The position numbers and the translations under genes were made by a program. A DNA stretch of 64,000 nt from Atopobiaceae bacterium (lineage in GTDB: Bacteria > Actinomycetota > Coriobacteriia > Coriobacteriales > Atopobiaceae): contig JAFWIE010000048.1 in assembly GCA_017533825.1 (NCBI GenBank), positions 1 to 64,000 on the forward strand, given 5' to 3'. Below, piece by piece: positions 1 to 18,602 of this stretch. Within the stretch, counting starts at the first letter, position 1. Each line of letters begins with the position of its first letter. The notes under the pieces were generated by a model. It was not told the DNA's origin, made no database searches, and worked only from the letters and a program-made list of their open reading frames with translations.

Positions 1-1
1 T

Positions 2-1108
2 CTGGCATCCTTCTGCAGAGGCGCGCACGACGACGCCCTCACGCCCCCGTGGAGCGTGGACGCGCTTCAGGACTACGACTCCGCCGCCCGCAAGGCCTTG
101 GTGGCACTCTTCGCCACCGACGACTTCTGCCAGATGGCGAGACGCGACATGGTGCGCGTGAGCGCGTGGGAGCTCGCCCGCCGCTCCAACAGCGTCGCTT
201 GGGGCTTCCAGGGCTCATGGGACAGCGTCTCGCTCATGTGGAGGCTCGTGGAGCCAGTCGTGGGGCACGACGTCGCCCGAGACGCGCTGTCGTCGGCCAT
301 GGGCACGCTCGCCACCTACCTCGGCAACGGCCGCAGCTACGCCGCGTACGAGCTGTTCGGCGGCAGCCGCGGCATCCACGACGTGGACGCCTACCTCGGG
401 CGCGACCGAACGCGCATGCTGGTCGCCGACGTGCTTGAGCTCGGAGCCAGCGTGGAGTCCGGCTACATGGGCGACGTCACCTCCGCCATGGCGCACCTCG
501 CGGGAACGCTCGCTGGCCTCGGCGTCGAGCTGGACAGGTCAAGAGTGTGCCGCCACGCCATGCGCCTGCTCGCGCAGCCCCCGAGGCGCTACCGCTCCCG
601 CGCGAGCAGCATCATGTCGTGGGCGACGTGCGTCGAGCGTCAGGTGTACGTCCGCGGCCGCGTGACCGACCCGTTCCCCGAGGACCCGCGCGCGCTGGAG
701 GAGCGCCTGGAGATTGAGCGCGTCGAGCGTCGCGACGGCGCGCAGGACGCGCGCATACGGGCACGTGCGGATGTGCTCTCCGACAAGTCGTACTCCGACG
801 ACGACTTCCGCATCCGCCCCGTGGCCTCCGCCTCGGAGATGGTCGAGGAGGCCGAAAACCAGCACAACTGCCTCGCGACCTACGTCGAGGCCGTGGCAGA
901 GGGCATGACTGACATATGGCTGATGCGCCGCGCGAATGACCCCGACCGCAGCCACGTCACCGTCGAGGTGCGCGACGGAGAGGTGCGCCAGGCCTTCCGC
1001 GCGTGCAACCAGGTGCCCAGCGACTCCGAGCTGAGATGGCTCGCCGCGTGGTGCAAGAGGGTGGGATACCGACCGCACAGGGGGCGCATGCAGGCGCTGT
1101 GCGCATAG
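2..1108 (+). CDS. PcfJ-like protein, 5' end outside the window
   Basis: The frame is open from the first bases of the window and ends at 1108, so this is the C-terminal part of a longer protein; the GTG at 56 is probably internal. The same frame upstream of 56 reads LASFCRGAHDDALTPPW, which matches LNSFCKDAHGDALTPPW in the decayed copy at 1671. The C-terminal third carries the PcfJ-family signature: an NQHNCLATYV segment, then TDIWLMRR, then HVTVEVRDGEVRQAFRACN. PcfJ-like genes are common on conjugative plasmids and integrative elements, and their biochemical role is not established. A strong hairpin follows the stop. I infer an accessory protein of the mobile element. Confidence 0.75.
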   Translation: MASFCRGAHDDALTPPWSVDALQDYDSAARKALVALFATDDFCQMARRDMVRVSAWELARRSNSVAWGFQGSWDSVSLMWRLVEPVVGHDVARDALSSAMGTLATYLGNGRSYAAYELFGGSRGIHDVDAYLGRDRTRMLVADVLELGASVESGYMGDVTSAMAHLAGTLAGLGVELDRSRVCRHAMRLLAQPPRRYRSRASSIMSWATCVERQVYVRGRVTDPFPEDPRALEERLEIERVERRDGAQDARIRARADVLSDKSYSDDDFRIRPVASASEMVEEAENQHNCLATYVEAVAEGMTDIWLMRRANDPDRSHVTVEVRDGEVRQAFRACNQVPSDSELRWLAAWCKRVGYRPHRGRMQALCA

Positions 1109-1128
1109 GGGCGTGGCAGGAAGCCCAA

Positions 1129-1153
1129 GGCGGGAGGCCGTGACCCTCCCGCC
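1129..1153 (+). terminator. Hairpin after the PcfJ-like gene
   Basis: A perfect 9-bp inverted repeat, GGCGGGAGG/CCTCCCGCC, lies 20 bases after the stop. There is no following T-run, so it may be a transcript-stabilising or Rho-assisted end rather than a classic intrinsic terminator. Confidence 0.5.
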
Positions 1154-1426
1154 GACGCCCGGCCTTCCGGCCGGCCGCTCCGGCGCCAAGCCCGCCGTCG
1201 CGGCGCGTGCTCGTGGGGGGCTCGCGCGCGGCTTTACCCCGCCCCCAGGCCCCGGGACCCCTGGCGCCTTCCGACGGCTCACGGATGGAGCCGGCATCCT
1301 CGCGCCGTCGGAAGCCGCTCCCGGTTTGCAAACACTCAGTTTGTATAATCATTTCCTTGATGCCTTACCATTCAATCGGCATGGCGCCGTGCCTCCGCAG
1401 GAGATCGACCACTTTGGGAGGCAACC

Positions 1427-1630
1427 ATGAAATGTAAGACCATGAGCCTTGAGCTGCGCGACAAGATCGACGCGCTCGTCTGCGCCGCCATGGGCGCGGG
1501 CTTCGTCTGCCTGAACCTCGCTGGGCAAGACCGGGAGAGCGAGACGTACTACATGATGGACATGCTCGGCGACGTCCTCGTGAGGGCCGCGGCAGACGTC
1601 CGGGAGGAGCTTGGAAGGACCGAGCCGTAG
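1427..1630 (+). CDS. Small protein of unknown function, 67 aa
   Basis: The ATG at 1427 is preceded by GGGAGG at a good distance, and codon use fits the surrounding high-GC genes. The protein is acidic and mostly helical in character, starting MKCKTMSLELRDKIDALVC and ending in VREELGRTEP, with no recognisable domain. A TATAAT box at 1344-1349 could be its -10 element, though I see no convincing -35. It sits between the intact and decayed PcfJ-like copies. I infer an element-borne accessory gene; no function can be assigned. Confidence 0.55.
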   Translation: MKCKTMSLELRDKIDALVCAAMGAGFVCLNLAGQDRESETYYMMDMLGDVLVRAAADVREELGRTEP

Positions 1631-1648
1631 CCATACCGAGGCCTGAGA

Positions 1649-1668
1649 GGGCGGCTTTGCCTTTTTTG
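1649..1668 (+). terminator. Weak hairpin plus T-run
   Basis: A short GGC/GCC stem is followed directly by six T residues downstream of the 67-aa gene. The stem is weak, so this is only a candidate intrinsic terminator. Confidence 0.3.
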
Positions 1669-1670
1669 GC

Positions 1671-2429
1671 GTGAGAGAGGGGACGCGCCGTGCGCGCGAC
1701 GGCACGGACCCCTCCCACGGAAGCGCCGTCCGACGCCGCTGCGGGAAGAAGTCCGAGCTTTTGGTCATGCTCGCGACGCAGGGGCAAGCCTACGTGATGG
1801 ACGAGCGCACGGGACGCAGGCACGCCCTCACGCCAGCCCGCCTCAACTCCTTCTGCAAGGACGCTCACGGCGACGCCCTCACGCCGCCGTGGACGCGACG
1901 CCGCGCTGGAACGGCACGCCGTGCTACTCGTTGCAGCTGTGGGCGGACTCCCTGCGCTCTCAGGTAAATGTACGAGGCCACGTCACGGACGCGTACCCCC
2001 GACGACCCCTACGAGCTGCTGCGCGACTTGGAGCGCGAGGAGGAGATGCGCCAGTACGACCGCTACGGCGATGGAGTAAGCAGGCGCGCCGAGGAGCTGT
2101 CCGAGCACTCCATGGACGACGACAGGTACCTCATCCGTCCCGTGGCGACCGTCGAAGAGCTGTTCGAAGAGGCCGAGTCTCAGCACAACTGCCTCGCCAG
2201 CTACCTCGCCAAGTACGCCGACGGCGACACCGACATCTGACTCATGCGTGCCGCCGACAACCCCGAAAAGAGCCTCGTCACCGTCGAGGTGCGTGGCGAC
2301 CGCGTGCGCCAGGCTTTCCAGGCATGCAACCGTCAGATAACGCAGGCTCAGCGCCGCTGGCTGCAAGAGTGGTGCGACGAGTGCGGCTACGTCATGCCCG
2401 AGGGTCGCATGCACGCTCTCTGTGCCTAG
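1671..2429 (+). pseudogene. Decayed second copy of the PcfJ-like gene
   Basis: Conceptual pieces in two frames align with the intact copy at 2-1108. Around 1830-1885 the frame reads LNSFCKDAHGDALTPPW; it then shifts to SLQLWADSLRSQVNVRGHV (about 1930-1990), and near 2000 shifts back to DPYELLRDLEREEEM and SQHNCLASYL. Between the first two blocks roughly 170 residues present in the intact copy are missing. At 2238-2240 the Trp codon of the conserved TDIWLMR motif is TGA, and the same frame continues afterwards as LVTVEVRGDRVRQAFQACN to LCA at 2429. Two frameshifts, a deletion and an in-frame stop make a dead gene the simplest reading. The start is uncertain. Confidence 0.75.
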
Positions 2430-2440
2430 GGTTTTCTAGG

Positions 2441-2464
2441 GCCCGACGGAGACCACCGTCGGGC
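2441..2464 (+). terminator. Hairpin after the decayed PcfJ-like copy
   Basis: GCCCGACGG pairs with CCGTCGGGC across a 6-base loop, about 11 bases after the last codon. Its placement matches the hairpin behind the intact copy at 1129, which supports the idea that both copies descend from a duplicated unit. Confidence 0.5.
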
Positions 2465-2926
2465 GCACCCCTCGCGGGCGGGCTGGCGCCCGCCTTGTTC
2501 GACCGCGCCGTGCCATGCCCACGGCTCGGTTATGGGCTCGTGGGGGGGCTCGCCCTAAACCCAATGGCACAAGAAGATACTCCATGGATGCAGCGCCAGA
2601 ATCACTCCTTGCCTGTCCCATTGGGCACGTCCCTCGAACCAAAAGCCTGAAAATCTCGAGGCGCGGCCTCAGAGTATCTTCGGCACAACACCGACGGATG
2701 GCGCTAGCTAACAACGTGAAGTGCTGTTGACGATAGGCATCGCAGGGAAGGTGGCATATTGCTCTAATTGGCCGTCTCGGCGACACATACATCGAACATG
2801 CTGTGCCGATGTCACCAGGAACAAGGTGCGCTAGTACGTCCTGCCGGAACGAGGCGATGACACGTACTTCTGCCGTCGCAGCTATATGCGTGTGTATCTA
2901 CCAAACAGATGGAGAGATTAGGCACC
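2465..2926. other. Intergenic stretch without a supported gene
   Basis: Short open frames exist on both strands, but none has a convincing ribosome binding site, sensible codon use or recognisable motif. The left part resembles the sequence behind the first PcfJ-like gene (a GCTCGTGGGGG run followed by a CTCGC run near 1208 and 2538). I see no RNA gene or clear regulatory site. Confidence 0.5.
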
Positions 2927-4744
2927 TTACTTCGCCGTCATGCCCATCTTTACCATCATCTCAGCGTTCTTCCTACTCTTGTCGAACTTTGCGAGATCCA
3001 ACTTCTCCTTAACCATGTCGTTGTATCCCCTTGTGGGGTTGTCCTGCTCGTAGTCCATTAGGTAGGAGGCGGTGGCAAGTTTGTAGAGCATGACGAGCCT
3101 GTCAATCGTGCCTCTGTCACTGATTGCCGCGCTTATCTCCCCGTACTTGCCGCCCGCGCACTCGTATCTCGAGAAGCCCTCTATGAGATGCCACGTAACG
3201 GGAACCCTAGTATCCTCCTGATTGATTGACTTCTCGTACTCCGAGCGCACGTAGAGCAGGTACAGATCGAGCATTCTCTGTGTAGTGAACTCGTCACTCT
3301 GTATTGCCTCTGTGACGAGCTTCCACTGCGTCGAGTCCTTCTTCAGAAGCGCGGACTTCTTCTGTGAGGCTTGCTGCGAGTCGCCGGCGAACGCGAGGAT
3401 CACCTGCATGAGCTTGTCGAGGGGCACCATAAAGTCCCTAAGGTTCCTAACCCTCCCCTCAAGCCCGAACTGCTCGATTTTCTTTGAGGCAAGCTTGCGC
3501 AATGTCTCGACGTCTCCCTTGTACTTCTTCGAATACTTCTCGCGGTCGCTCTGTTTCAGCAGTACGAGGAAGCCCTTGTCCTCAAACTCGCGCTGAACGG
3601 TGCGGAAGAAGTCTTCGTTGGCGTTGAAGCTCTTCTCGTCGATGCTGTTCTGGCTGTTGTTGTATCTGACGATGTTCTTCCTGAGCTCCTCGAACCTCGT
3701 CTTCTCCTTGTCGTCATCCGGGATTACGAGGGCCTTCGCCATGACGAAGACGTCCTTGAACTCCATCTCGAGCTCGGACTCGGGGTAGGCACTTAGCACC
3801 TGGTGGATGGTGCTTACGGTCTGGCAGCCGTTCACTATCTGCGGGTTCCTGAGAAACACCGGCCTGCCCTTCTTTGACTGCTTCCTGACTTGTAGATCGC
3901 TGCAAATTATCGTTATGCCGTTGTTGTAGAAGAAGAACCTTTTGCGCTCGCTATGCGATTCGAGAGTCCTCTTGATTCCCTTGTTCACGGCGCGGCCGAC
4001 GCCGAGGTATTCCCTGATGTTGGCATCGAATATCGGATATTGGGCCTTGTTCGCATCCCTGAGCAACTTGTAGAGCTCGGTCACGGGGAGCATGAAGTAC
4101 CTTGCATCAATCTCGAGATCGAGACCGTAGTCCTGAGGGTTGGTGCTGAGTATCGTGCCCTTTACCACAGTGGTTACCGTCGTCGAGAACGATTTCGCAT
4201 CCACGTTGGGCTCGCCATAGAACGCCTCGCGGATGTCGTCCAAGTAATACACGTCAGCCCGTCTATTCAGGTTGGCGTTCTTGTGGTTGAAGTTTTGTAC
4301 GGCGATATCCACCTGGTCGCTGCGCCGGTTGTTCGTCACGTAGAAGCAGTGGTACACGTAGAAATCGGGATGTTGCCGGTATGCGCTGAACAGCTGTTGG
4401 AGCTCCAGGCAGTGCTTGTAGGTTCCGTCACACAACATCTGATACGCGTGGTCTATGTTGCTCTCGAAGTACGATGCCGTCAGCTGGGATGAGTCGTCGT
4501 AGTACTTGTTCTGGATGAGGAACAGGTCCTTGGTCTCCTCGTGCCAGATGTAGCAGTCTATTCCGACGTCATGATTGTCAATGATGTGCGACTTGACGAC
4601 ATCGTCGTCCTCGCCATACAGCTTATCGAGCACCCAGAAGTTGAAGGCCCAGTCTGGGTTCGCCATGCTGTCTAGGAACGGGTGCTGTTCCTGGTAGTAG
4701 GCGATGTCCTCGCTGATTTGGGTACGGAATGTGCCTTCGGACAT
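2927..4744 (-). CDS. AIPR family protein (abortive-infection-associated, putative nuclease)
   Basis: The 605-aa product carries the AIPR hallmark: an NNGITIIC segment, then NPQIVNGCQTVSTIHQV, then VRYNNSQNSIDEKSF, in that order. Near residues 60-82 there is GIDCYIW followed by LFLIQNKYYD, an Asp...QxK arrangement that looks like a PD-(D/E)XK nuclease core variant. AIPR proteins occur in abortive phage infection loci and beside restriction-modification genes; the exact activity is not settled. The ATG at 4744 with GGAG upstream is preferred over the in-frame TTG at 4756. It follows the methyltransferase by 68 bases on the same strand, so the two may share a transcript. Confidence 0.85.
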   Translation of the reverse strand: MSEGTFRTQISEDIAYYQEQHPFLDSMANPDWAFNFWVLDKLYGEDDDVVKSHIIDNHDVGIDCYIWHEETKDLFLIQNKYYDDSSQLTASYFESNIDHAYQMLCDGTYKHCLELQQLFSAYRQHPDFYVYHCFYVTNNRRSDQVDIAVQNFNHKNANLNRRADVYYLDDIREAFYGEPNVDAKSFSTTVTTVVKGTILSTNPQDYGLDLEIDARYFMLPVTELYKLLRDANKAQYPIFDANIREYLGVGRAVNKGIKRTLESHSERKRFFFYNNGITIICSDLQVRKQSKKGRPVFLRNPQIVNGCQTVSTIHQVLSAYPESELEMEFKDVFVMAKALVIPDDDKEKTRFEELRKNIVRYNNSQNSIDEKSFNANEDFFRTVQREFEDKGFLVLLKQSDREKYSKKYKGDVETLRKLASKKIEQFGLEGRVRNLRDFMVPLDKLMQVILAFAGDSQQASQKKSALLKKDSTQWKLVTEAIQSDEFTTQRMLDLYLLYVRSEYEKSINQEDTRVPVTWHLIEGFSRYECAGGKYGEISAAISDRGTIDRLVMLYKLATASYLMDYEQDNPTRGYNDMVKEKLDLAKFDKSRKNAEMMVKMGMTAK

Positions 4745-4812
4745 AGGTTGCTCCAATCATGCGGCTTTCAGCTGTAATGCGTATTATACTTGCTCGTTGC
4801 CCTGTGATGGCT

Positions 4813-6063
4813 TCAGCTATACATCGCTATGGCCTCGCCAATCCTGTGCACCACACCCACCACGAGCGCGTTGCCCATGCAGAATGCTCTCTGCGTGTCG
4901 CGCATACCCGTGTCGGTCCATCCCCTCGGAAAGCCCTGTAGCATGTCCAGCTCGTCGGGCACGAGCCTACGCATGCGGCCGCCCTGCTCGACGATGTGCT
5001 TGAACCTCGACGCGCCGTTGCCGCCCTCGCCCGTGAGTATCGTACGGGAGGGGTTGGTCAGCAGGTCGGGATAGGCCATCGAGCCCTCCGAGTACCAGTA
5101 GCGGTGACCCCCCTTCGTCACGCGCTCCTCGCGCTTCGAACCCTTGAGGTACTCCCACTTGGGAAGCTGCGCCTCGGGCACCCAGAACTCTTCGGGCACC
5201 TCGGCGGCGGGCACCACGACGTCGCCCAGCACGCGCCGCTCGCCGTCATACGCCTCGGTGACGCGGCAGGTGGCCGCCTCGAAGTCGCAGCAGCACCCAG
5301 CCTCCATGAACGGGGAAACCTTGGACGCGGGCCAGGAGTTGGTGATCTCGTACGGGTCGTCGCCAATCGCCACGTGCCCGATGCCGTCCAGCTCCGCGAT
5401 GGGCAGCGCCCGCGCCATGACGCCGTCGACGAGCCTCCCCTCGACGTCCCACACGGCGTCTTTCTCCGCGTAGATGTAGACGCGCTTGCGCCTCTGGGGG
5501 AAGCCGTACTCGGCGCTGTTCACCACGCGCCACTCCACGGCGTAGCCGAGCGAGTTGAGGCACGAGAGGATGATGGCGAAGTCCCGGCCGCGCTGCGCTG
5601 CCGGGCTCTTGAGGAGCCTGTCCACGTTCTCGAAGAGGCAGTACCTGGGCTCCTTCAGCTTGAGGAAGCGGTGAATCTCCCACCAGAGGACGCCCTTCTT
5701 GCCCTCGATGCCGCCCGCCATGGAGAGCGGCTTCGCGACTGAGTAGTCCTGGCACGGGAATCCTCCCACGACCATGTCCACGTCGGGTATCTCAACCTCA
5801 GCCGTCTCGGCCGCGTCCATCACTGCGTGTATGTCCTCGTTGACGCAGGAACCATCGCCGAAGTGGCTCTCGTAGCAGCGCCATGCGAACTGCTTCGCCT
5901 CGCTTCCCGGCGGCTCCCACTGGTTCGCCCACACGGTCTCGTACGGACCCGCCGCAGGCATGTCGAATTCGGGATGCTCCTCCGAATGGTATCCGTCCAG
6001 GCCGAGCCTGAACCCGCCGACCCCCGCGAAGAGCTCGGCGACCCTGATGGTCTTCTCGTCCAC
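4813..6063 (-). CDS. DNA (cytosine-5) methyltransferase
   Basis: The protein transfers a methyl group from S-adenosylmethionine to C5 of cytosine in a specific DNA site. Motif I (ELFAGVGGFRLGL, about residues 10-22), the catalytic motif IV (GGFPCQDYSV, Cys104), motif VI (ENVDRL) and motif VIII (QRRKRVYIYAE) are all present. A target-recognition region follows at about 200-330, and the C-terminal motif IX/X segment ends in DELDMLQGFPRGW. The GTG at 6063, with GGAG just upstream, puts motif I near the N-terminus as is usual; a TTG at 6105 is the alternative. The Sau3AI-like nuclease at 9759 is the natural restriction partner, which would suggest modification of GATC, but this is inferred from the nuclease. 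Confidence 0.92.
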   Translation of the reverse strand: MDEKTIRVAELFAGVGGFRLGLDGYHSEEHPEFDMPAAGPYETVWANQWEPPGSEAKQFAWRCYESHFGDGSCVNEDIHAVMDAAETAEVEIPDVDMVVGGFPCQDYSVAKPLSMAGGIEGKKGVLWWEIHRFLKLKEPRYCLFENVDRLLKSPAAQRGRDFAIILSCLNSLGYAVEWRVVNSAEYGFPQRRKRVYIYAEKDAVWDVEGRLVDGVMARALPIAELDGIGHVAIGDDPYEITNSWPASKVSPFMEAGCCCDFEAATCRVTEAYDGERRVLGDVVVPAAEVPEEFWVPEAQLPKWEYLKGSKREERVTKGGHRYWYSEGSMAYPDLLTNPSRTILTGEGGNGASRFKHIVEQGGRMRRLVPDELDMLQGFPRGWTDTGMRDTQRAFCMGNALVVGVVHRIGEAIAMYS

Positions 6064-6467
6064 GTTTCTCCAATCGCTGCTGTGGACCAATTCGGTTGGA
6101 GACAATCATAGCCGACCGGGTGGACAAGATCAAGTTTGTTGGAGGGCAACCACGATAACACAAGCCTTCTCATGGCAGAGGATTCATAGCCAGCAGAGAC
6201 GAAGCGACTGGACAATCAATTCATCACCTCGCAGAGCCTGCGGCGACCCACCGACGGGCCGTACGGAAAACTCGACACGATGCAAGACGCCATGCGCTCC
6301 CTCCTGCCGTGGAGGCGCTCCCTGGTTTCGTAAAGCACCACTGCGAGAGCAAAAGCCCGACGAATTCCTTTGCGAGTAAGGGAAATAGAGGGGTTGTATA
6401 GGCATCCCCACGCCAACCCTTCGCTCGAAATCACCAACCATTGATCCAACCCGGTACTCAAACACCC
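6064..6467. other. 404-bp gap between methyltransferase and DUF4238 gene
   Basis: No well-supported gene is visible. A minus-strand frame at 6216-6461 (81 codons from a TTG, ending RRRLCEVMN) has protein-like composition in its second half, but it lacks a ribosome binding site and any motif I recognise; it could be a gene remnant. The gap probably also carries the promoter for the methyltransferase-AIPR pair. Confidence 0.4.
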
Positions 6468-7505
6468 TCAGTCCTGAATCTCGTTCCAACGCTTCATCAT
6501 GTCGGCCATCTTGTTGCAGTACCCTGGGTCAACGCGACGAGGGCGAAGCCTCGTAATCCAATCGCTCTTTCTACAATCGTACACATACCGTAGGGCGTTT
6601 TGAACAATCGAGCCCGCAATCAACTCGGTGGCGTTGGGCTCCGAGGCCAGGCGAGAAGAAGCAAACGAGACTCCGCCTGCATGGGCAAACAGAAGATGGT
6701 GAGGGGTCAGGGGCATGAAGAGGTGGACATCGGGGTCCCCGACGCTTCCATCAAGAGTCGGGCGGCCGCCCGGTCTCATGCATAGCCTCACGAACGGGTT
6801 GTCACATGTTGGGAGGACGACTCCGTCGGGCATCTCGACGACCGACCAATTGTATCCGCGCATCCGCCGCCCCACCTCGCCATTGAGAATCCGACCAATA
6901 CCTGCAAGATAGTTCTTTCTCCCAACCGGCATGGTGATTTTGAGCTCGCTCGTCTCTTCGATGACACCAACATCGAAGGCGAACTGCGGGAACGGGGCAC
7001 TGTCCGGCTGACTGGCCGTCTTGTCCTGGGCGTTGCTGGCCGTCAGCAGTCCCGCCTCATATTCGGATTCGAGGCGGTCAACTACCTCCGTGGTCGCGGA
7101 TGGGAAGACGTTGGCCATCAATGCGCAGGATTTCATGTACCACAGAGGGGTCCGAACCATCTGCAGGATGGCAAAGTCCACCAGTGCCGACATGTCATTC
7201 GAACCAAGGGTCTCGCCATCCCTGACCTTCCTCAGGGGTTCGCCCGCCTTCCACTCGTACTCGTCTCCGAACAGCTTCTCGATCGAGTCGTCAATCGAGT
7301 CGTCATCGTTGGCCTGCGTGTAGAAGTCCCTCCAGTATGCGAGTCCCCCGACGCCCTTAGACTCCCACACCTTTTGGCGCTCGCTCCACGCAATCGTGTC
7401 GTAGGTCCAGACCGTGTTGCCATTGTTCGACCACTGTCTGAGGTACATCTGGGGGACGTAGTGGTTGTTCCGTTTTTTCTCCGTGTCTTCTGCCATGTCG
7501 GTCAC
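6468..7505 (-). CDS. DUF4238 domain protein in an overlapping pair with AbiH
   Basis: The N-terminus has the DUF4238 signature NNHYVPQMYLRQWS, followed by a strand reading TVWTYD, and the length (about 345 aa) fits the family. The family has no proven biochemical role but is frequently seen among phage-defence and accessory genes. The likely GTG start at 7505 gives a GTGA overlap with the AbiH stop, with AGAGGG upstream; an ATG at 7496 is an alternative. Such overlap normally means translational coupling, so the two proteins are probably made together. I infer a shared defence function. Confidence 0.75.
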   Translation of the reverse strand: MTDMAEDTEKKRNNHYVPQMYLRQWSNNGNTVWTYDTIAWSERQKVWESKGVGGLAYWRDFYTQANDDDSIDDSIEKLFGDEYEWKAGEPLRKVRDGETLGSNDMSALVDFAILQMVRTPLWYMKSCALMANVFPSATTEVVDRLESEYEAGLLTASNAQDKTASQPDSAPFPQFAFDVGVIEETSELKITMPVGRKNYLAGIGRILNGEVGRRMRGYNWSVVEMPDGVVLPTCDNPFVRLCMRPGGRPTLDGSVGDPDVHLFMPLTPHHLLFAHAGGVSFASSRLASEPNATELIAGSIVQNALRYVYDCRKSDWITRLRPRRVDPGYCNKMADMMKRWNEIQD

Positions 7506-8788
7506 CAAGCCCTCTTCATAAGGCGCTTCACCTCAAGCCTGCCCTCGAGCAGGAGCTTGTGCATGAGGTTCTTGCCGTGGTCCCTGTTATCGAGCGTCCC
7601 GCCGTACGTTGTGAGGAGCCGGGTGACCGCCCTGACCGTCTCGGCATGAAGCTCATCTTCGTCCTTGCCCGGCCACGGCCTGTAGTAGAAGACGAGCCTC
7701 GTGCCGCCGCCGTACAGGTTCACCCCGTCGAATATCGACTGGAAGTAAGAGTAGTCCGCCTCGCCCAGCGAGTGCCCGAAGAACTTGATCGTCGCCGTCT
7801 TCGGCCAGCCGATGCCGCCAGCCGAGGTGTCGTAGAGCGGGTTGCCCATCTTTACGCCCATCGATGCGACTCTGTATGTCTTCGTGAAGGGCAGGGCGTC
7901 GAGGTCGCCCATGCACTCCTTGCCATCCACGCCGAAGATAATCTCGGCGCCGAGCCTGCCGTGGATGTTCACCACGTTCGCCTCATCGACGATGCGATTC
8001 GAGTAGATGAACGGGGTCGTGTAGTTGAATGACAGGACCGAGGTGTGCTCTTTGTCGTACTCCACCTCCTCGTCATGGGTCAAGCCATCCCAAGCCATAT
8101 CGGCCAAAAGGCTCACTGCCTCGTTGAGGTACCTCCCGTTGTTGGTTCCCTGCCCCAGGAGGTAACCCATGAACTGTTCCTCGACCCCGTGGAGTTCTAC
8201 GAGCAGGAAGTCGAGGAGTTGTGACCTGTCCATTCCCTGTCCTGCCTCATAGCCCGCCCTGTGCCAGACGCAGCGGGCGACGTCGCGAAGACGCAGTTCG
8301 AAGTCGGTTGTGAGTTTGTGCACCACCCTGTCAGTCGCCTCATCTATGCGGGGTGGGTTCCTATGAAACACGGGCAGTTTGAGTATGTCGAGGAGTTGGT
8401 CGACAACCGACGTCTCGTCCTGTCCTCCATCATGTTCCTCGACAGTCGGCGCTGGCAGGACCCAGTCGCCAATGACCTTCTCCAAGTTGCACCACTCAGG
8501 CCCACCGATGCCGAGCCTCAGGATGAAATCCCACACGGTCAGGCGGTTCTCGTCGACCACTTTCTTCCACTCCTCCTCGTCGCAGTCCTCAACGGAGTCG
8601 GCCCTCTGTAGCCTGCCGCCAAAGAAGTCGGCATACGAGGACCTCAGCCCGCATGCCAAGTCAAAGCCATTGCCGATTACCATCATCTGCCGCTCTCCGT
8701 ACAGATCGGCGAACATCTCCCCTGTAGACTGGTTCGTCTGTTGAACAGCGCATCGCATCTCGTTTGCGTCAAAGCCGTCATAGCTCAT
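7502..8788 (-). CDS. AbiH-like abortive infection protein
   Basis: The N-terminal motif MMVIGNGFDLACGLRSSYADFF (about residues 35-55) and the C-terminal FFGHSLGEADYSYFQSIFD are both typical of the AbiH family, in which the protein blocks phage propagation by an incompletely known mechanism. The family is usually 300-450 aa and this one is 428. The ATG at 8788 has an excellent AAGGAGG four bases upstream and is preferred to the upstream codons in the same frame. The 3' end overlaps the DUF4238 gene, and the pair lies between the methyltransferase/AIPR genes and the Sau3AI-like nuclease. A promoter should lie in 8789-9002. Confidence 0.85.
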   Translation of the reverse strand: MSYDGFDANEMRCAVQQTNQSTGEMFADLYGERQMMVIGNGFDLACGLRSSYADFFGGRLQRADSVEDCDEEEWKKVVDENRLTVWDFILRLGIGGPEWCNLEKVIGDWVLPAPTVEEHDGGQDETSVVDQLLDILKLPVFHRNPPRIDEATDRVVHKLTTDFELRLRDVARCVWHRAGYEAGQGMDRSQLLDFLLVELHGVEEQFMGYLLGQGTNNGRYLNEAVSLLADMAWDGLTHDEEVEYDKEHTSVLSFNYTTPFIYSNRIVDEANVVNIHGRLGAEIIFGVDGKECMGDLDALPFTKTYRVASMGVKMGNPLYDTSAGGIGWPKTATIKFFGHSLGEADYSYFQSIFDGVNLYGGGTRLVFYYRPWPGKDEDELHAETVRAVTRLLTTYGGTLDNRDHGKNLMHKLLLEGRLEVKRLMKRAW

Positions 8789-9002
8789 AGGGCCTCCTTG
8801 GTGATAGTGAATCAGACAATCGTACACCCAAGGAGGGACAAGAATAGGTGCCTAGATTCCTTGCCGCCGTGGCCTTCCGAGCCCATGCCACCCCAAATCC
8901 CCGAAGCTTTTAGCCGATGCGAGGAGACGGCCGATATGGGCGGTATGAGGCAAATGCCATCCGTCGCGGCCACGCACTGAACGAGGTTACGAAATAAGCA
9001 AC

Positions 9003-9753
9003 GTGAAGAAGGCCACTGGGAAGATGAGGGGATGGGCAATCGCGGCAATTATCACCGCCATCTTGGCCGTTCTTACCATCGACGCGGGACTTGCCATGGG
9101 AGCCGAAGGTGGCGTCGACGATGCGCACGGCACCGTGACTAGCGACACCACGCTAACATCGGACGAGTCACCGTGGCAGGAGACGCGCCAGTCGCCATCG
9201 GGGGACGCCTATGCGGTGCTGGACAGCGAGGGAATGCCCGCGTTCACCCGGAGTGATGACGGCTCATGCGATGACTACGTTATGGGCAATGCTTCCATCG
9301 CGGACGTGCTCGGAATTACACGCGACGGAACAGTCTACAGACTTAGTTCCCATCAGATCATTGCGACCGACTGGGTTCCGTGGGAGACGCAGCGCCGATG
9401 CCCGTACCGAGCCGACCTCCAACTCGACGGCTTTTCACCTACCGAATCCAGTTGGATACGGTTGACGCGACCGCAAGAATCAGCGTGGACCGCATCAAAT
9501 TCGTGAAAACAAGGGACAAACCGATACGGGTGGCGAAATCGTCCCGTCTGTGCCCACTGTACGTGTTCGAGAAGGCAATAACGCCCCGGCGAACAAAAGC
9601 TCTTGGCCAGGGTCCGACATCCAAACCCTGAGGACTAAGTACGAGCTTTACTCGAACCTCCCTCGACCCCCTTTCATGGCGCTACCGGAATGGACCCTCC
9701 GCGTGAAAGATGATGAGGCGCTGGAAGTCGGACCCATCAGCAAGCCATCCTGA
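9003..9753 (+). pseudogene. Broken gene for a secreted or membrane-anchored protein
   Basis: The first frame (GTG 9003 to stop 9506) begins with a clear signal peptide or anchor: a lysine-rich start, then WAIAAIITAILAVLTI. Near 9430 the sense-like sequence moves to another frame reading YRIQLDTVDATARISVDRI, and around 9580 it moves again to KYELYSNLPRPPFMALPEW, ending at 9753. Each segment has plausible protein composition while the overlapping frames do not, so two frameshifts in one extracellular protein are likely. The start lacks a strong ribosome binding site. It is the only plus-strand gene in the defence island. If the frameshifts are not real, the product is a 167-aa secreted protein of unknown function. 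Confidence 0.45.
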
Positions 9754-9758
9754 CGGAC

Positions 9759-11225
9759 CTAAAGCAAGTCTCGAATCTGGTCCAGCATGTAGTCACTGTT
9801 GAGCCAAAACGCCTGCCGGGTCATCCAGCGCCCGTCGGGCAGGGGCTCGGCGTCTCGCTCAACGTTCCCAATCTCCATGCGCCCGAACCGGTACGCCGCG
9901 CGTGCGGCGCGGGGGCGCACGTGGGCGACGAGGCGGTCCGATATCGCGGGGAAGTCGTTGGAGTAGGTGACCTTGCCCGTGCGGGAGACCCTCTTCGTGA
10001 GCTGCACGCCGCGTCGGACGGCGTCCCTCGTCCTTAGCCAGCACTCCCGCACCGGGCCGTCGAGCGTGTCCTCGTCCATGCCCCAGAGCCTGCAGCCGCG
10101 CAGCACCGCGTCGCCGGAGCCGTCCTTCTGGAACACGACGAGCAGGTAGCGCATGTCGGTGAGGAGGTCCCGGAGGGCCGAGTCCTCCCAGTCGTCCTCG
10201 GCAGCGAGCGTCAGGAAGTCGATGTTGAGGATCGGGCTGCTCTCCACGAGGCGCCTCCCGTCAGGCTCGGGTCGCAGCGTGCGGACGCGGATGCCTGCCT
10301 TCTCGAACTCGGCCGCGCGGTCGCCCCGTATGCCGAGCAGGCGGTAGGCGATGGTCGTCCACTGGGCCTTGTTGCCGGTGTACTCCAGTCCCAGCATGTC
10401 GCAGAGCTCGCGGTCCGTCCTGCCCACGTGGCGGTTGATGGTGGACGTGACGTAGTCCGCGAGGGTGCGCCTCTCCAGCTCGCGTGGGTCCCGGATCACG
10501 CTCTCCGCCTCCGGTGCGCCCATCGCGTAGTGGTGCAGCACGTAGTCCATGTAGGAGCGCTTGAGGGAGAACGCGCGTGCGCGGGCTTGCCTTCCTGGCG
10601 CGTACAACACCTGGTCGCGCATGCTCTTGGCGCGGCTGGCTCCCTTCGTGCAGGCGCCGAGGTAGGTGGTGAGCGACTCGCTGAGCTCGTCGGCCCTTCC
10701 CTCGCGCACAAGGTTGGCTATGAGCTCGTAGTCCGTCTCCATGACGCGCAGGTCGGCCTCGGGCGGCGTGAACATGAGCGTGTACAGGATCTTTTGGTCG
10801 TAGGGGTCCTTGCCGCGCTCGCGCAGGTACCAGACGAGAAGCATCCGCCCGCACTTGTGCCACAGGTGCGACTCGTAGAGGCTGTCCGCCACGAGCTCGT
10901 CGTAGGCGATCATGGTGAGCACAAGCCGCTCGCCCGCCGAGAGCCTGCCGCTCTTGAGCCTGTCTACACAGGTCGCCTTGAGCTCCACGCCGGCCTCGGC
11001 GAAGTCGGGCTCGCGGTCTGAGTTCGCGCGGTAGCCGAAGAACCTCTCCTCGAGGAGGTTGCCCATCCCGCCCTTGTAGCGGCGGCTGTTGTACTCGCGC
11101 TCCACGCCATCAGGGGCGATGCCGAGGTCGAGCACCTCGCGGAACGTCATCCCCTCGAGCTGGCTGGCACGCCGCCAGATGGCATCCTCCGAGTCGTACT
11201 CGACGTTAACTTGACTCTCGTTCAT
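9759..11225 (-). CDS. Sau3AI/MutH-type restriction endonuclease
   Basis: This 488-aa protein is almost exactly the length of Sau3AI. It has the MutH-fold signature: KGGMGNLLEERFFGY near residues 51-65, then EPDF with Asp74 and GVELKAT with Glu81 and Lys83, which form the catalytic Asp-Glu-x-Lys set. A second, divergent domain follows, as in Sau3AI, where two MutH-like domains act together. Sau3AI relatives cut GATC and related sites, so GATC is the working prediction. The ATG at 11225 has GGGAGG upstream; the longer frame to 11387 is not needed. The likely modification partner is the C5 methyltransferase at 4813. Confidence 0.88.
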   Translation of the reverse strand: MNESQVNVEYDSEDAIWRRASQLEGMTFREVLDLGIAPDGVEREYNSRRYKGGMGNLLEERFFGYRANSDREPDFAEAGVELKATCVDRLKSGRLSAGERLVLTMIAYDELVADSLYESHLWHKCGRMLLVWYLRERGKDPYDQKILYTLMFTPPEADLRVMETDYELIANLVREGRADELSESLTTYLGACTKGASRAKSMRDQVLYAPGRQARARAFSLKRSYMDYVLHHYAMGAPEAESVIRDPRELERRTLADYVTSTINRHVGRTDRELCDMLGLEYTGNKAQWTTIAYRLLGIRGDRAAEFEKAGIRVRTLRPEPDGRRLVESSPILNIDFLTLAAEDDWEDSALRDLLTDMRYLLVVFQKDGSGDAVLRGCRLWGMDEDTLDGPVRECWLRTRDAVRRGVQLTKRVSRTGKVTYSNDFPAISDRLVAHVRPRAARAAYRFGRMEIGNVERDAEPLPDGRWMTRQAFWLNSDYMLDQIRDLL

Positions 11226-11466
11226 CGTGCCTCCCGTTGCTTGAGCATATCGTGTCGCAGAGCAGGCTCCCCGCACATCAACAAATGTATCGTAACTGAG
11301 AATAGGAATGTGATAGTGAGACGCCAAGCGGTCAGATGGGTGATTGCCTCCTCGGGGTGCTCTGTACCACGAGTACACGCATGACACAGGGCCGCGGCGG
11401 GGCGAACCGCATGTTCTAATGGAACGAAGCGAGGTCCTTTGATGACGACATCCGAGTGCCGCTCAC

Positions 11467-11505
11467 AAAAAAAGAGATCCCCATCGGGCGTTATGCCCGA
11501 TGGGG
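11467..11505 (-). terminator. Intrinsic terminator of the 129-aa gene
   Basis: CCCCATCGGGC and GCCCGATGGGG form an 11-bp perfect stem with a 5-base loop. On the minus strand it is followed by a run of seven T residues, directly downstream of the gene ending at 11515. Confidence 0.9.
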
Positions 11506-11514
11506 ACGTGTGCG

Positions 11515-11904
11515 CTATCCGTAGATGCAGACGCACTTCTCGATGTAACGATAGTACCTGCGGTCACCTGGCATGTAGAGGATGCACCTGTCTTTGACGT
11601 CGAAGCATCCGATGTTCTCGCAGTCGTCGACCACGTAGGGCCACTTCCTCGTCCCGAGGTTCGTCCTGCGCTCGCACCACACCTCGCGTCCGCGCGGGTC
11701 CACCTCCCTGATCTTGGCCCTTGCGGCGACCTCGCGTGCGAACACCTCGCCACGCACCTGCACCCGCTTGCGTACGTATCTCTCCGGGAGCGAGGACTCC
11801 GCCTCGTCCATCATGCGCTGGATGAGCCTCCAGGTGCGGTGGGTAACGCAGCGCATCTTGACCTTGCGGGCGTCGCCGCCCGTCTGCTCTTGTCTCTGGT
11901 TCAT
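11515..11904 (-). CDS. Hypothetical protein, 129 aa
   Basis: This basic protein starts MNQRQEQTGGDARKVKMRC and has four cysteines in its second half plus a WPYVVDDCENIGCFDV segment; I recognise no family. An AGGA-type ribosome binding site precedes the ATG, and a strong intrinsic terminator follows the stop. It is the last of a run of small minus-strand genes (12986 to 11515), each separated by GC-rich hairpins. This layout is typical of accessory cargo in actinobacterial mobile elements. No function is assigned. Confidence 0.6.
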   Translation of the reverse strand: MNQRQEQTGGDARKVKMRCVTHRTWRLIQRMMDEAESSLPERYVRKRVQVRGEVFAREVAARAKIREVDPRGREVWCERRTNLGTRKWPYVVDDCENIGCFDVKDRCILYMPGDRRYYRYIEKCVCIYG

Positions 11905-11932
11905 GTCAAATCCTGTCTATTCCTTTACGGGC

Positions 11933-11960
11933 GTGGGCCCCGCACGGACGCGGGGCCCAC
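11933..11960 (-). terminator. Hairpin after the 180-aa gene
   Basis: GTGGGCCCCGC pairs perfectly with GCGGGGCCCAC over a 6-base loop, just downstream of the gene ending at 11994. There is no clear T-run on the minus strand, so it may be partial, allowing some read-through into the 129-aa gene. Confidence 0.6.
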
Positions 11961-11993
11961 AGGGCCGTTCGTGGTGGCTTCGTGCGCGGTGGC

Positions 11994-12536
11994 CTAGTCA
12001 CCAAGGCGGCACATGGAGTCGAGGGCCTCGATTGCGACGTGCACGTCGCTTACGGCATCCTCGATGATGGCGACCCGACCCCTGACGGCAGGGATCCCCA
12101 CCGTGCAGAACAGAAGGGGTCGATCACGGCACTTGACGGCGACGATGGCAAGCCAGAGGCCGGGCTTCGGCTGCATGCGCAGCAGGGCCACGTCGTCGGT
12201 GCATGCGAACTCATCCCCCATCCCCGTGTGAGGCCTGCCGCATGGCACGGGGCAGTCCGTCAGCACCATCTGCCAGATGTCTGGCTCCGACGTCTCGAGC
12301 TTGCGGAGTGCCTCTGCGAGGATGCCGCGGACTTCCGGAAGGTCACGACGGCGCGTGCTGTCCCCGCAGACGATGCCGAGGCGTTCGAGTCGGAATCCGT
12401 CCGGCCTGTCCGACAATAGGACGACGGGGTTGCCGAGCTCGTCGTAAATGAAGGGCGGGGCGAAGACCCTAGCCTGCAGGAGCTCGACGGTCGGGGCTGT
12501 GGTTTCGTTGTTGCTTTCCTTGAAATATGAAGACAT
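11994..12536 (-). CDS. Hypothetical protein, 180 aa
   Basis: The product begins MSSYFKESNNETTAPTVELL and contains PPFIYDELGNPVVLLSDRPD, then a central region with GLWLAIVAVKCRDRPLLFC. The composition is that of a soluble mixed alpha/beta protein with no signal peptide or membrane segment. I do not recognise a family. The ATG is preceded by an AAAGAAAGA-rich stretch at the usual distance. It lies between two hairpins in a series of small cargo genes on one strand. Confidence 0.6.
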   Translation of the reverse strand: MSSYFKESNNETTAPTVELLQARVFAPPFIYDELGNPVVLLSDRPDGFRLERLGIVCGDSTRRRDLPEVRGILAEALRKLETSEPDIWQMVLTDCPVPCGRPHTGMGDEFACTDDVALLRMQPKPGLWLAIVAVKCRDRPLLFCTVGIPAVRGRVAIIEDAVSDVHVAIEALDSMCRLGD

Positions 12537-12610
12537 TTTTCTATCTTTCTTTATCGGGACGCCGCCTTCGGCGTCCGCTTGGTTGGTTTTTCAGTTGCGT
12601 ATATGGGCGC

Positions 12611-12638
12611 GGGGCCCGGGCGTCGTTGCCCGGACCCC
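12611..12638 (-). terminator. GC-rich hairpin after the 102-aa gene
   Basis: GGGGCCCGGGC and GCCCGGACCCC form an 11-bp stem with one mismatch. It lies about 40 bases past the stop at 12678, and a second hairpin (GGACGCC/GGCGTCC) follows at about 12559-12582. Confidence 0.55.
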
Positions 12639-12677
12639 GCTTGCGGCCGGCGGACCGGCCGGGCTTGCGGCTGACGC

Positions 12678-12986
12678 CTACTCTTCGACTGGGCCGAAGA
12701 GCTTCTCGTAGTCGTCTGCGTCGAGGTGCTCCTCGACCCAGTCACGGGCGGCGTCCTGCGACAGGGGCTCGATTGTCTCGCCCCAGCCGCGCATGCCGTC
12801 GACGTAGGTCTTGCCGTACGGAGACAGGCCGTGGCCCTCCCCGTGGAGGAAGAGCTCGCCGGTCCGCTTGCGGTAGAGGGTCTCGCTGCAGTAGCGGAAG
12901 TTCCCGCGGTCGCAGCAGCTTTTCCAGTCGCCGATCTTCTCGGCGGTGTCGGTGTCGTAAAGCTTCCGATTGATGACTTTTCGCAT
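12678..12986 (-). CDS. Conserved small element protein, 102 aa
   Basis: The sequence MRKVINRKLYDTDTAEKIG, then SETLYRKRTGELFLHGEG, then WGETIEPLSQDAARDWVEE, matches a pattern I know from small hypothetical proteins on conjugative elements of Firmicutes and Actinobacteria. These start with a KxYDTxTA block and end in an acidic tail such as YEKLFGPVEE. The function of that group is unknown. A very strong AGGAGGTGA ribosome binding site precedes the ATG at 12986. Rich expression signals and family spread suggest a maintained accessory role. Confidence 0.7.
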   Translation of the reverse strand: MRKVINRKLYDTDTAEKIGDWKSCCDRGNFRYCSETLYRKRTGELFLHGEGHGLSPYGKTYVDGMRGWGETIEPLSQDAARDWVEEHLDADDYEKLFGPVEE

Positions 12987-13165
12987 CGTTAGTCACCTCC
13001 TTCTGGTGTCTTGGGTGCCAGTTCGTGCTAGACGTCGCGCCAGTGTCGACCCGCTGGCGCCCTCCGGGGGGTGCGTCCCCTGTAGCCCCAGGGGGCGGCC
13101 TCGCTGGGCCGTCGCTCATGGCATGCCTCCTTTCAGGCTGTGTTCCTTCTCGTCTTTGTTCTCGT

Positions 13166-13192
13166 AGCCACCTCCATGCGATGGAGGTGGCT
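13166..13192. repeat. Perfect 12-bp inverted repeat, 3-base loop
   Basis: AGCCACCTCCAT and ATGGAGGTGGCT flank GCG. The arms resemble an anti-ribosome-binding-site sequence (CCTCC/GGAGG). It lies upstream of the 13119 start signal on the minus strand, so it could be regulatory or a terminator. Confidence 0.6.
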
Positions 13193-13296
13193 GCCTTTGC
13201 CCGCCAGGGCTCGCTGTGCACTTCGTAATTAATTACCGTGGGGTCGGGCGCGCGGAGGCGTGCCGCGACCCCGGCGTCGCAGGAGGGTCTCGCTCC

Positions 13297-13628
13297 GGCC
13301 GCCATGGCCGGGCGTCTGGTCTTCCCCTCGAGCCGCAGGCGAGTAGCGTCAGCGCATTGGCTTTTGGTCTTTCGCAACCGGAAGCCGCGGGATCGGACGC
13401 GCAGAGCGTGACGCATCCCTGGCGGTGGCTTTTTGCTTGTTTCAAGTTAGAGATCGTAATCACACGCGCGCTGTAAGCGTGTCTGTGATTGCATATCGTT
13501 CAGAGCTTCCGTCCATGCCTCGTATGCCTTCGAGTACCCTCAGGGCAAGGTCTTGCAGCACTTCGCCGCCTGTCGCCACGGCCGCGATGGCCTGGCATGT
13601 ATGTCCCCTCGAGCCAGAGGCGAGTCGC
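13297..13628. repeat. Pair of imperfect direct repeats of about 50 bp
   Basis: Blocks at 13297-13346 and 13580-13628 share GGCCGC-ATGGCC-GGC, a variable spacer, then TCCCCTCGAGCC, then AGGCGAGT-GC. They lie 283 bp apart in otherwise non-coding DNA. A decayed duplication, binding sites or parts of a structured RNA would all fit. Confidence 0.5.
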
Positions 13629-13993
13629 ATGTGCGCTTCGGCCCGGAGGGCGACCTGCGGAGGCATGCGCCCCGCATCGGCGGGGCCGGTCTCGAGAAGC
13701 ATTCGGCAGCGTCGCTGCCTCAAGGCTCGCATGTGCTTTAGAGCGCCCGCCACCAGCCGAACGTCCCCCATGCGTGCTGACGGGCGTGTTCCCGCAGGTT
13801 AACCGTAGCGCGCGATTGCGCCGGACGACTCTTCGGACGCATTTCGAATCGCTCGTAACTCAACCTCTTTATATTCGTATACCGACCTAATATGACACGC
13901 CTGCGGACCCGTCTGCACCGCCTGCGCGGACCGCGAGGAGCCGTCTGCCCGAGGGGGCGTATACTTCTCGCGTAGCCGTAGGGAGGGGACGCG

Positions 13994-14860
13994 ATGGACG
14001 GCGCGACGGGTCGCACGGAGGCGTGGATGAGGGCGGACGCGATGGCCGCCGTCAGGCTGCTGTCGACGCTCAGGGGCGCGGAGGCGGCCGTGGCCGGATG
14101 GATGCTGGCGAGCATGGACACCCGGACCAACAGGGTGGCCGGTACCCAGGCCGAGATCTCGTCCGCCGACGGCTTCTTCTCACTGCACGCAAGGGGCGGG
14201 GCGCCCGCGCCGTCGACGGTCACGCGCGCCCTCAGGGTCCTGGGGGGCAAGCCCGACGGCGAGCGGCGCCTGCGGCTCCCGTTCGTGGTCATGGAGCGCC
14301 CGGGCCTTTACATGGTCAACCCCGCCTACGCGTTCGTCGGCAGGCAGAGGGCGGGCGCCGAGCTGTCGCGCAGCTTCGAGAGGCTGCGCTCGGCGGCGGG
14401 CGTGGGCGCCTCCTACAAGTTCCGGGTCGGGAAGGGCGGCTGGGTCAAGACGGGGCGCATGCAGCTCGCGGCCACGCTCGCGACGCTCAGGGGCGCCGAG
14501 GCCCAGGTCGCCGCGTACCTGCTCGCCTCGACCGACGCGCGCACCAACACGATCCGCGCCACGCAGGCGATGGCGGCGGCAGGAGAGGTGGACCGCGCGG
14601 GACTCGCGGCGCGCCTGGGGACGCTGCCCACTCCCGGCACCACCGTCACGAAGGCCGCCATGCGGCTGCTGGCGGGTGGCGAGGCGAGGGACGGCAGGAG
14701 GCTGGACACCCCGTTCTGCGTGATGGTCGGCTACGGGCGGTACATGCTCAACCCGGCCTGCTTCTTCGTCGGCGGAGACGACAAGGGGGCCGAGCTCAGG
14801 CGAAGGTTCAGGCGCCTCGACATCGAACGCAACGGCGGGCGTGGCCCGAGCGTTGCCTAG
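13994..14860 (+). CDS. Protein with two tandem RepL-like domains
   Basis: The 288-aa protein consists of two similar halves. The first, about residues 18-130, reads LRGAEAAVAGWMLASMDTRTN ... PSTVTRALRVL ... MERPGLYMVNPAYAFVG; the second, about 150-278, reads LRGAEAQVAAYLLASTDARTN ... TTVTKAAMRLL ... VGYGRYMLNPACFFVG. A winged-helix-like block ending in Y-M-x-N-P-x-x-F-x-G is the pattern of RepL plasmid replication initiators, which normally have a single such unit. GGGAGGGG precedes the ATG. The gene converges on the helicase with a 4-base overlap. Replication initiation at the repeat field near 16.3 kb is a reasonable inference; transcriptional control is the main alternative. Confidence 0.6.
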   Translation: MDGATGRTEAWMRADAMAAVRLLSTLRGAEAAVAGWMLASMDTRTNRVAGTQAEISSADGFFSLHARGGAPAPSTVTRALRVLGGKPDGERRLRLPFVVMERPGLYMVNPAYAFVGRQRAGAELSRSFERLRSAAGVGASYKFRVGKGGWVKTGRMQLAATLATLRGAEAQVAAYLLASTDARTNTIRATQAMAAAGEVDRAGLAARLGTLPTPGTTVTKAAMRLLAGGEARDGRRLDTPFCVMVGYGRYMLNPACFFVGGDDKGAELRRRFRRLDIERNGGRGPSVA

Positions 14861-16044: not shown

Positions 16045-16276
16045 GCTCCTCCCCCCGTGGCCGCCAACACCGTCACGCCAATCATAGCAGCGCGCGGACG
16101 ACGACGTGGGCCGCCACCGCAGACGCAGAGCCGGACGAGATCGTCATCCCTCGGCCACGCGGCATCGACGCGCGCTGCACGCCGGGTCGACGTCATCCCC
16201 TTGACTTCCCTGCCATGCAGTCCGGTTGGAGACGCCGAGCGCCAAGGACCTGGCGACAGCCTCCCCTAGCACCACC

Positions 16277-16452
16277 TGTTACGGTGTTACGGTGTTACGA
16301 CACCGCCGCCACGTCCCATATATATATTTATTTCATCTCCCTCCTAATTGGGAAATAGGTATAACACCGTAACAGGGCGAGGCCTTTGGCTCGTCTAGCA
16401 GGGTGTTCGCCGTGTTACGGCGACACGCGCTCGTTACGGCAGGGCGTAACAC
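16277..16452. repeat. Iteron-like field of TGTTACGG repeats with AT-rich core
   Basis: Three head-to-tail 8-mers TGTTACGG, TGTTACGG, TGTTACGA occupy 16277-16300. Inverted copies appear at 16361-16374 (TAACACCGTAACA). Further direct copies are at 16413-16420 and, as CGTTACGG, at 16432-16439, with an inverted CGTAACA near 16445. Between the groups, at about 16318-16360, is a TATATATATTTATTT stretch in a very GC-rich setting. Repeats plus an AT-rich opening region are the layout of a plasmid-type origin; an operator array is the alternative. Confidence 0.6.
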
Positions 16453-16453
16453 G

Positions 16454-16684
16454 TTATAGGTCCAAGCCGTAGGAGCGCTCGTCGTGCCTGGTGGCCGAGG
16501 CTCCTTGGTAGGGGAAGAGCAGACCGAAGCCGACCGCGTCGGACTCGTGGGGTACGGGCTGCCTGCCCGTGCCGGCGGCGCCCGCTGACCGCGCCATGGG
16601 TGCGCGCATGGTGGGGCTGAGCCCGTTCCTCCTGCGCGACATTATCGCAATCCGCGCGAGCCTGCGCGAGCGAGGCGCGCTCAC
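16454..16684 (-). CDS. Small basic protein coupled to the mobilization gene upstream
   Basis: The GTG at 16684 overlaps the stop of the preceding gene in a GTGA tetranucleotide, the usual signature of translational coupling. The 76-aa product is rich in arginine and serine in its first half (MSAPRSRRLARIAIMSRRR) and has no recognised domain. Its position in the divergent transfer operon suggests a DNA-binding mobilization accessory protein, but that is inference only. Confidence 0.45.
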   Translation of the reverse strand: MSAPRSRRLARIAIMSRRRNGLSPTMRAPMARSAGAAGTGRQPVPHESDAVGFGLLFPYQGASATRHDERSYGLDL

Positions 16685-17064: not shown

Positions 17065-17107
17065 CGTTGCCTCCAATATCCAATTCCGTGCATAAAACCT
17101 TTGTCAA

Positions 17108-17142: not shown

Positions 17143-17204
17143 CAGTATTAGTGCATAAGTGCACAACCACTATCCAAAGCTCCGCATAAAGGAAGGGAAA
17201 GGTC

Positions 17205-17441: not shown

Positions 17442-17447
17442 ACCAGC

Positions 17448-18587: not shown

Positions 18588-18602
18588 GGGAGTTGGTTAG
18601 AG

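Follow-up and report, generated by a model that had tools for sequence, protein, structure and literature searches.

Accessory defence genes between the restriction and methyltransferase genes of a Sau3AI-type system on a putative mobilizable element of an Atopobiaceae bacterium

A 64,000-nucleotide stretch of Atopobiaceae bacterium DNA (hereafter the window; C34:1-64000 in a 147-contig draft genome with a completeness of 96.6%) was found to carry a Sau3AI-type type II restriction-modification (R-M) system whose restriction endonuclease gene (R) and C5-cytosine methyltransferase gene (M) are separated by genes of the defence families AbiH and DUF4238 and followed by an AIPR-family gene. R and M form the conserved core, and M is equipped with a promoter of its own and a conserved leader. 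We consider it probable that the locus, located on an integrative mobilizable element, is an R-M system whose two genes enclose a slot for accessory defence genes, with a further such gene behind M, and that it combines GATC restriction, a self-tuned M and an abortive back-up. The features of the locus are listed below, with gene starts called from Shine-Dalgarno sites and homologues.

9759..11225, minus strand: R, Sau3AI-family type II restriction endonuclease (NF040973, 444.8 bits against a curated cut-off of 300; MutH domain, 5e-26; start 11225)
9003..9506, plus strand: open reading frame (ORF) of unknown family inside the slot, with an N-terminal hydrophobic, signal-peptide-like segment
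7502..8788, minus strand: AbiH, gene 1 of the slot module (Pfam PF14253, 5.9e-18, 66.3 bits, gathering cut-off 30.9; start about 8788)
6468..7496, minus strand: DUF4238 protein, gene 2 of the slot module (Pfam PF14022, 2.2e-28, 99.9 bits, cut-off 27; start about 7496)
6105..6133, minus strand: promoter of M, TTGATC-17-TATGAT; its -35 box contains GATC (no other sigma-70-like site in 2700-11600)
6058..6087, minus strand: hairpin with covarying pairs spanning the M start (arms 6087-6082 and 6063-6058; the loop holds the Shine-Dalgarno GGAG and the 3' arm the GTG start)
4813..6063, minus strand: M, C5-cytosine DNA methyltransferase (TIGR00675, 5e-63; PADLOC MTase_II, 499.5 bits; GTG start at 6063 from the conserved leader)
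2927..4744, minus strand: AIPR-family protein, downstream of M (Pfam PF10592, 6.9e-40; PADLOC AbiU, 1.9e-34; start 4744)

A sequence-only reading had named these five families (AIPR, C5 methyltransferase, DUF4238, AbiH and Sau3AI-type nuclease) at these places, and Pfam, NCBIfam and PADLOC matches bore it out, as they did its position of the gene set; its R start at 11225 also stood, and the M start was placed at the GTG at 6063 rather than at 6105. The five defence genes lie on the minus strand as that reading stated, but the ORF at 9003-9506, between AbiH and R, is on the plus strand. This ORF had no Pfam, PADLOC or NCBIfam match and no relative among the slots compared. The AIPR N-terminus gave a weak Mrr-like nuclease signal (PF13156, 0.0025, under the cut-off), and the DUF4238 protein reached just 17.4 bits against the PADLOC DUF4238-Pers model.

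To determine how these genes are distributed, 140 genomes of the family were searched separately for R, AbiH, DUF4238 (this subfamily) and AIPR, which were matched in 36, 18, 3 and 10 genomes, respectively. The genomes are drafts throughout, and all counts of loci, pairs and leaders given here take related sequences as separate entries. The window was the sole place with all five genes. Within the same genome, contig C54 carries a second R-M pair (R 83% and M 72% identical) that encloses another gene and has no AbiH, DUF4238 or AIPR, and contig C17 carries AbiH-DUF4238 without a Sau3AI-type R-M system. Because the five genes never recur together while R-M and AbiH-DUF4238 recur separately, the locus is not the one fixed cassette that had been proposed, and a single five-gene system was ruled out as a candidate on the same count. 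The set as a whole was largely found scattered, an outcome that the sequence-only reading had itself named as counting against it, with two sub-modules conserved; the island consists of modules, namely a Sau3AI-type R-M pair, an AbiH-DUF4238 operon and a separate AIPR gene.

The gap between R and M was then compared across relatives by finding both genes and measuring their separation in 80 loci from a contig scan and in loci gathered earlier. Close relatives in the contig collection were mostly uncultured Coriobacteriia metagenome-assembled genomes, many of them rumen-derived going by isolate name. In the clade of the window's R-M system (R at least 57% identical), all eight intact pairs, that is, those with both genes present, had an insert of 0.7-3.7 kb between R and M, on the same strand with R first; in the window, the two genes are 3.7 kb apart. 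The other Coriobacteriia pairs, by contrast, showed a gap of 23-194 bp and no cargo in 16 of 16 cases. Six kinds of cargo were present in the clade (AbiH-DUF4238, NucS-like, GmrSD, GIY-YIG-Schlafen helicase, lipoproteins and small ORFs), distributed as follows.

Window: AbiH-DUF4238
L007 and L101: a 396-aa protein, whose relatives give a weak NucS endonuclease signal
L103: a GIY-YIG-Schlafen-type helicase and a 282-aa protein
L104: GmrSD
L105 (10265-10909) and L106 (10469-11065): two related proteins, lipoprotein-like and about 200 aa long, 53% identical and of unknown function
L107: small ORFs

Unrelated genes that vary from relative to relative, several of them from defence families, thus lie between cognate R and M. 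The slot extends from the R stop to the M promoter, and the cargo stops before the sequence that stays with M. Because of these boundaries, cargo could be exchanged without cutting M off from its promoter. Outside Coriobacteriia, GmrSD occupies the slot of a Rothia locus (L204) and relatives of the 396-aa protein fill it at L206 and L209. On two contigs of genome G137, a 374-aa gene directly before M resembles part of GmrSD, as judged by eye. The locus may be read as a type II R-M system onto which, in one bacterial group, other defence genes can dock, with the autonomous M promoter and leader offered as the structural reason.

Two further observations concern the slot. A family of proteins of 377-444 aa recurs in Coriobacteriia and Firmicutes, either in the gap separating R from M or close to M (L007 6571-7761, L101 3526-4716, L109 1276-2610, L206 3057-4217 and L209 11438-12571); they belong to no Pfam family, and one member gave a weak C-terminal NucS signal. 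Ahead of the real M, the L103 slot also contains 60 codons of duplicated M start, leader hairpin included (4900-5082), possibly a recombination scar.

Analysis of the sequence upstream of M revealed a recurrent promoter pattern. TTGATC-N15-19-TANNNT was present in 39 of 94 M leaders, compared with 0.4% of random 110-base stretches; the scan of 2700-11600 for sigma-70-like sites is by itself not above chance, whereas the conservation across leaders is. Within the 110 bp upstream of M at the same number of loci (94, L002-L214, several phyla), GATC was the most enriched palindromic tetramer, with 123 sites versus 23.8 expected (5.2-fold), followed by CTAG (2.6-fold). Upstream of R, GATC was not enriched (1.1-fold). 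Sau3AI itself recognises GATC. This background together with the enrichment upstream of M suggests that the M promoter senses the system's own methylation, and the GATC in the -35 box of many M genes suggests that such control is common in the Sau3AI-type family. Nothing relevant to the regulation of Sau3AI M was found in the open-access literature.

The M start is covered by a hairpin of six pairs common to 33 Coriobacteriia leaders, with 96.5% of cells paired and 38 double changes. Its covariation score was 0.47, compared with 0.10 in shuffles, and 0 of 500 shuffles reached it. The pattern used to select the leaders dictates the start and the Shine-Dalgarno sequence, so the evidence is carried by the three outer pairs only, and these are the pairs that covary. 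The window leader scored 60.9 bits against the resulting leader model (R1), which gave one or two matches in each of about 36 genomes among the 140; nearly all strong matches were starts of Sau3AI-type M genes. No match to the hairpin was found in Rfam. The start-codon hairpin is a candidate new RNA element; alternatively, the sequence could be a DNA operator palindrome. One clear exception among the model matches, G068:C377:1655-1701 (L285, E=7e-5), is not followed by a Sau3AI-type M.

From these patterns, we tentatively put forward a broader proposal, in which Sau3AI-type M genes may have a common self-sensing leader (their own GATC site as -35 box in several phyla, and the covarying start-codon hairpin in Coriobacteriia) that would make M independent of R and thereby let the R-M gap serve as a slot in which guardian genes, AbiH-DUF4238 among them, can be exchanged.

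The two cargo genes of the window were also associated elsewhere. DUF4238 of this subfamily immediately followed AbiH in four of four loci of the family, and all four adjoined an R-M system, of three kinds in total: Sau3AI/C5 in the window, Eco57I-type on contig C17, and BsuBI/PstI-type with a methylase in G131 and G135, which are probably orthologous. Several solo AbiH genes of the family lie beside R-M genes of type I or type III (L091, L094 and L095). A partnership of the two genes across bacteria in general was unsupported, with DUF4238 in 13 genomes and AbiH in 3 phylum-wide and this genome as their only overlap. AbiH loci on viral contigs were without DUF4238; DUF4238 was found in neither viral contigs nor phages, and AbiH was not found in phages.

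The AbiH motifs GNGFD, FNYT, HG and G-H-S...D were invariant or nearly so and occurred in SIR2 order. Makarova and colleagues predicted AbiH to be a Sir2-superfamily enzyme (PMC3506569), and the top PDB fold match of our AbiH model (predicted local distance difference test, pLDDT, 73) was the SIR2 protein of Sir2-HerA (E=0.028). The Pfam SIR2 family gave no hit among 27 AbiH proteins. AbiH is thus a predicted SIR2-superfamily enzyme, with a published prediction and weak fold support. DUF4238 alone blocks T7 in E. coli (PMC9122126). We predict that AbiH-DUF4238 is a two-gene suicide module; its position beside three R-M types makes the long-standing idea of immunity coupled to suicide testable with one small module.

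In the proposed mechanism, R would cut unmethylated GATC and M would methylate it. Methylation of the GATC in the M promoter, together with the start hairpin, would tune M output such that protection comes first and excess modification is avoided. AbiH and DUF4238 would provide an abortive-infection back-up, halting the cell when a phage escapes or blocks restriction, as PrrC does in EcoprrI, and AIPR, with its weak Mrr-like signal, would add a further, independent nuclease-like layer.

The surroundings of the locus agree with the earlier placement of the defence island within a mobilizable element, with the island flanked by PcfJ and, at its opposite side, by a UvrD-like helicase, a MobA/MobL relaxase and a Prim-Pol primase. 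The contig ends at position 1, so the left border of the element lies outside the window.

1..24119, no strand assigned: putative integrative mobilizable element, part within the contig (relaxase, primase and PcfJ; 98-bp attachment-like (att-like) repeat; sister element on G066:C187; right end at tRNA-Val)
2..1108, plus strand: PcfJ-like protein, open at the contig end (Pfam PF14284, 7.5e-16)
1968-2240: second PcfJ fragment (PF14284, 1.3e-8)
11477..11507, minus strand: terminator-like hairpin between R and the preceding gene (13-pair stem with 9 G-C pairs, T tail; consensus scan only)
14857..16044, minus strand: UvrD-like helicase of the element backbone (Pfam, 4.9e-23; 49% identical homologue on G066:C187)
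17448..18587, plus strand: MobA/MobL relaxase (Pfam PF03389, 5.8e-70, 236 bits)
20820..23711, minus strand: Prim-Pol / PriCT primase (Pfam PF09250, 1e-24)
24022..24119, minus strand: putative attachment-site repeat, comprising the 3' part of tRNA-Val and its downstream flank (98 bp, 98% identical to G000:C52:2475-2572)

The tRNA-Val itself lies at 24075-24149, adjoining the primase gene. The C52 copy of the repeat (L250) is not a full tRNA and neighbours an XRE gene and an integrase-like gene, the latter scoring 25.8 bits for Phage_integrase, just below the cut-off of 27.1. C34 and C52 are unjoined contigs, and the C52 site is probably the other end of the element; the gene content and the repeat look like those of an integrative mobilizable element split across two contigs. 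MobA/L is present, and no transfer (type IV secretion system) gene was found among the element genes scanned, the element being only partly inside the window. Comparison of the island DNA with plasmids gave only short methyltransferase matches.

The sister element (G066:C187, L109), in a genome of the same genus, has matching PcfJ, 102-aa, UvrD, relaxase and integrase genes, and, at the position of the window's R-M system, carries M together with an R that is truncated. AbiH, DUF4238 and AIPR are absent from that locus, and its other defence genes are GmrSD, an MmeI-type enzyme, a NucS-like protein and two more C5 methyltransferases. The truncated R (20783-21586) is inverted relative to M, and M is retained.

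Several other explanations of the locus were weighed. An ordinary defence island, in which a mobile element gathered unrelated defence genes whose location between R and M has no functional significance, is unlikely. Such islands are common, the sister element has GmrSD, MmeI-type, NucS-like and extra C5 methyltransferase genes nearby, and the slot cargo differs among relatives; this explanation is opposed, however, by the recurrence of cargo in the same gap from R stop to M promoter in 8/8 close relatives and 0/16 other Coriobacteriia pairs, and by the R-M neighbours of AbiH-DUF4238 in 4/4 loci. We regard as similarly improbable that AbiH-DUF4238 is a toxin-antitoxin or addiction pair stabilising the element, with phage defence secondary. 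AbiH lacks DUF4238 at many loci and on plasmids, whereas DUF4238 is solo on Vibrio plasmids and protective alone in E. coli (PMC9122126); because each occurs without the other, neither is an obligate antidote, even though the two genes are tightly coupled in 4/4 loci in a mobile setting and AbiH has been predicted to act as a toxic enzyme of the SIR2 type (PMC3506569).

A single functional system made up of all five genes, for instance a variant of AIPR/methyltransferase systems such as MZA, is scarcely plausible. The common direction of the genes within 8.3 kb would fit it, as would the AIPR gene directly after M, an arrangement found behind a Sau3AI-type M only in the window, and the AIPR proteins adjoining C5 methyltransferase-like genes in other family genomes (L111-L113). 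Joint recurrence was nevertheless lacking in the 140 genomes, and R-M and AbiH-DUF4238 were each found without the others. Membership in MZA was rejected: the locus resembles these systems in having AIPR beside a C5 methyltransferase, but AIPR scored 73.8 bits against the MzaE cut-off of 1050, and the neighbouring genes scanned at the locus gave no match to Z1, MutL/HATPase or the other Mza genes. A decaying remnant with inactive genes is very unlikely; PcfJ is duplicated and partly broken nearby and R is truncated on the sister element, but the window's five frames are uninterrupted and complete, closely resemble homologues that are intact and give domain matches that exceed the cut-offs, and the leader scores 60.9 bits.

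Some points weigh against the reading that we favour, that of an R-M system on a mobile element with a defence slot, a self-tuned M and an abortive back-up. The genome is a 147-contig draft, the window starts at a contig end and the putative second att site is on a separate contig. The window's M promoter has a single GATC, where relatives often have two or three, and the GATC specificity of this R-M system is itself a prediction from sequence. Foldseek of the AbiH model returned no match at E<=0.001, which leaves the SIR2 assignment short of significance; a profile comparison of AbiH with SIR2 by hhalign was negative, using a poor four-sequence SIR2 alignment, and the fold search with DUF4238 gave no match. 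Finally, some slot genes (lipoproteins and small ORFs) are not known defence genes.

Comparison with characterized systems indicated which parts of the arrangement are familiar. Embedding of defence genes in R-M loci is already known, and suicide genes coupled to R-M are established for PrrC, DarTG2 and PARIS (PMC12707154, PMC12255303, PMC3506569); the exchangeable slot in a type II R-M system and the M leader look new. As in the Sau3AI family of type II R-M systems, R scores above the curated equivalog cut-off and is linked on the same strand to a C5 methyltransferase, a linkage that recurs in many relatives; unlike in that family, R and M are held apart by 3.7 kb of other defence genes, and the specificity here is putative. 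PrrC in the type I system EcoprrI and the R-M guardian systems (PMC12707154) likewise place a suicide or growth-arrest gene within an R-M locus as a back-up for blocked restriction, whereas the host system here is of type II, the families differ (AbiH-DUF4238) and sensing of R-M failure is only proposed. An R-M island with a dedicated repressor, RptR, also has a two-gene module between its R-M genes, in a gap proposed as a recombination hotspot for defence modules; it differs from the window, in which M has its own promoter and leader hairpin.

In CfrBI, the M promoter is regulated via methylation of its own recognition site, a type of control described as rarely used (PMC12707154). A recognition site inside the M promoter is common to both, but the CfrBI genes are divergent with overlapping promoters, whereas here it is only the -35 box of M that forms the putative site, irrespective of how the genes are arranged. 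The slot module, in turn, belongs to the same protein families as two reported systems: AbiH of Lactococcus, which is active against some streptococcal phages by an unknown mechanism (PMC12322248), and DUF4238, an anti-T7 gene of a P2 hotspot (PMC9122126). Each of these is a single-gene system, whereas in the window the two families are joined in a two-gene operon.

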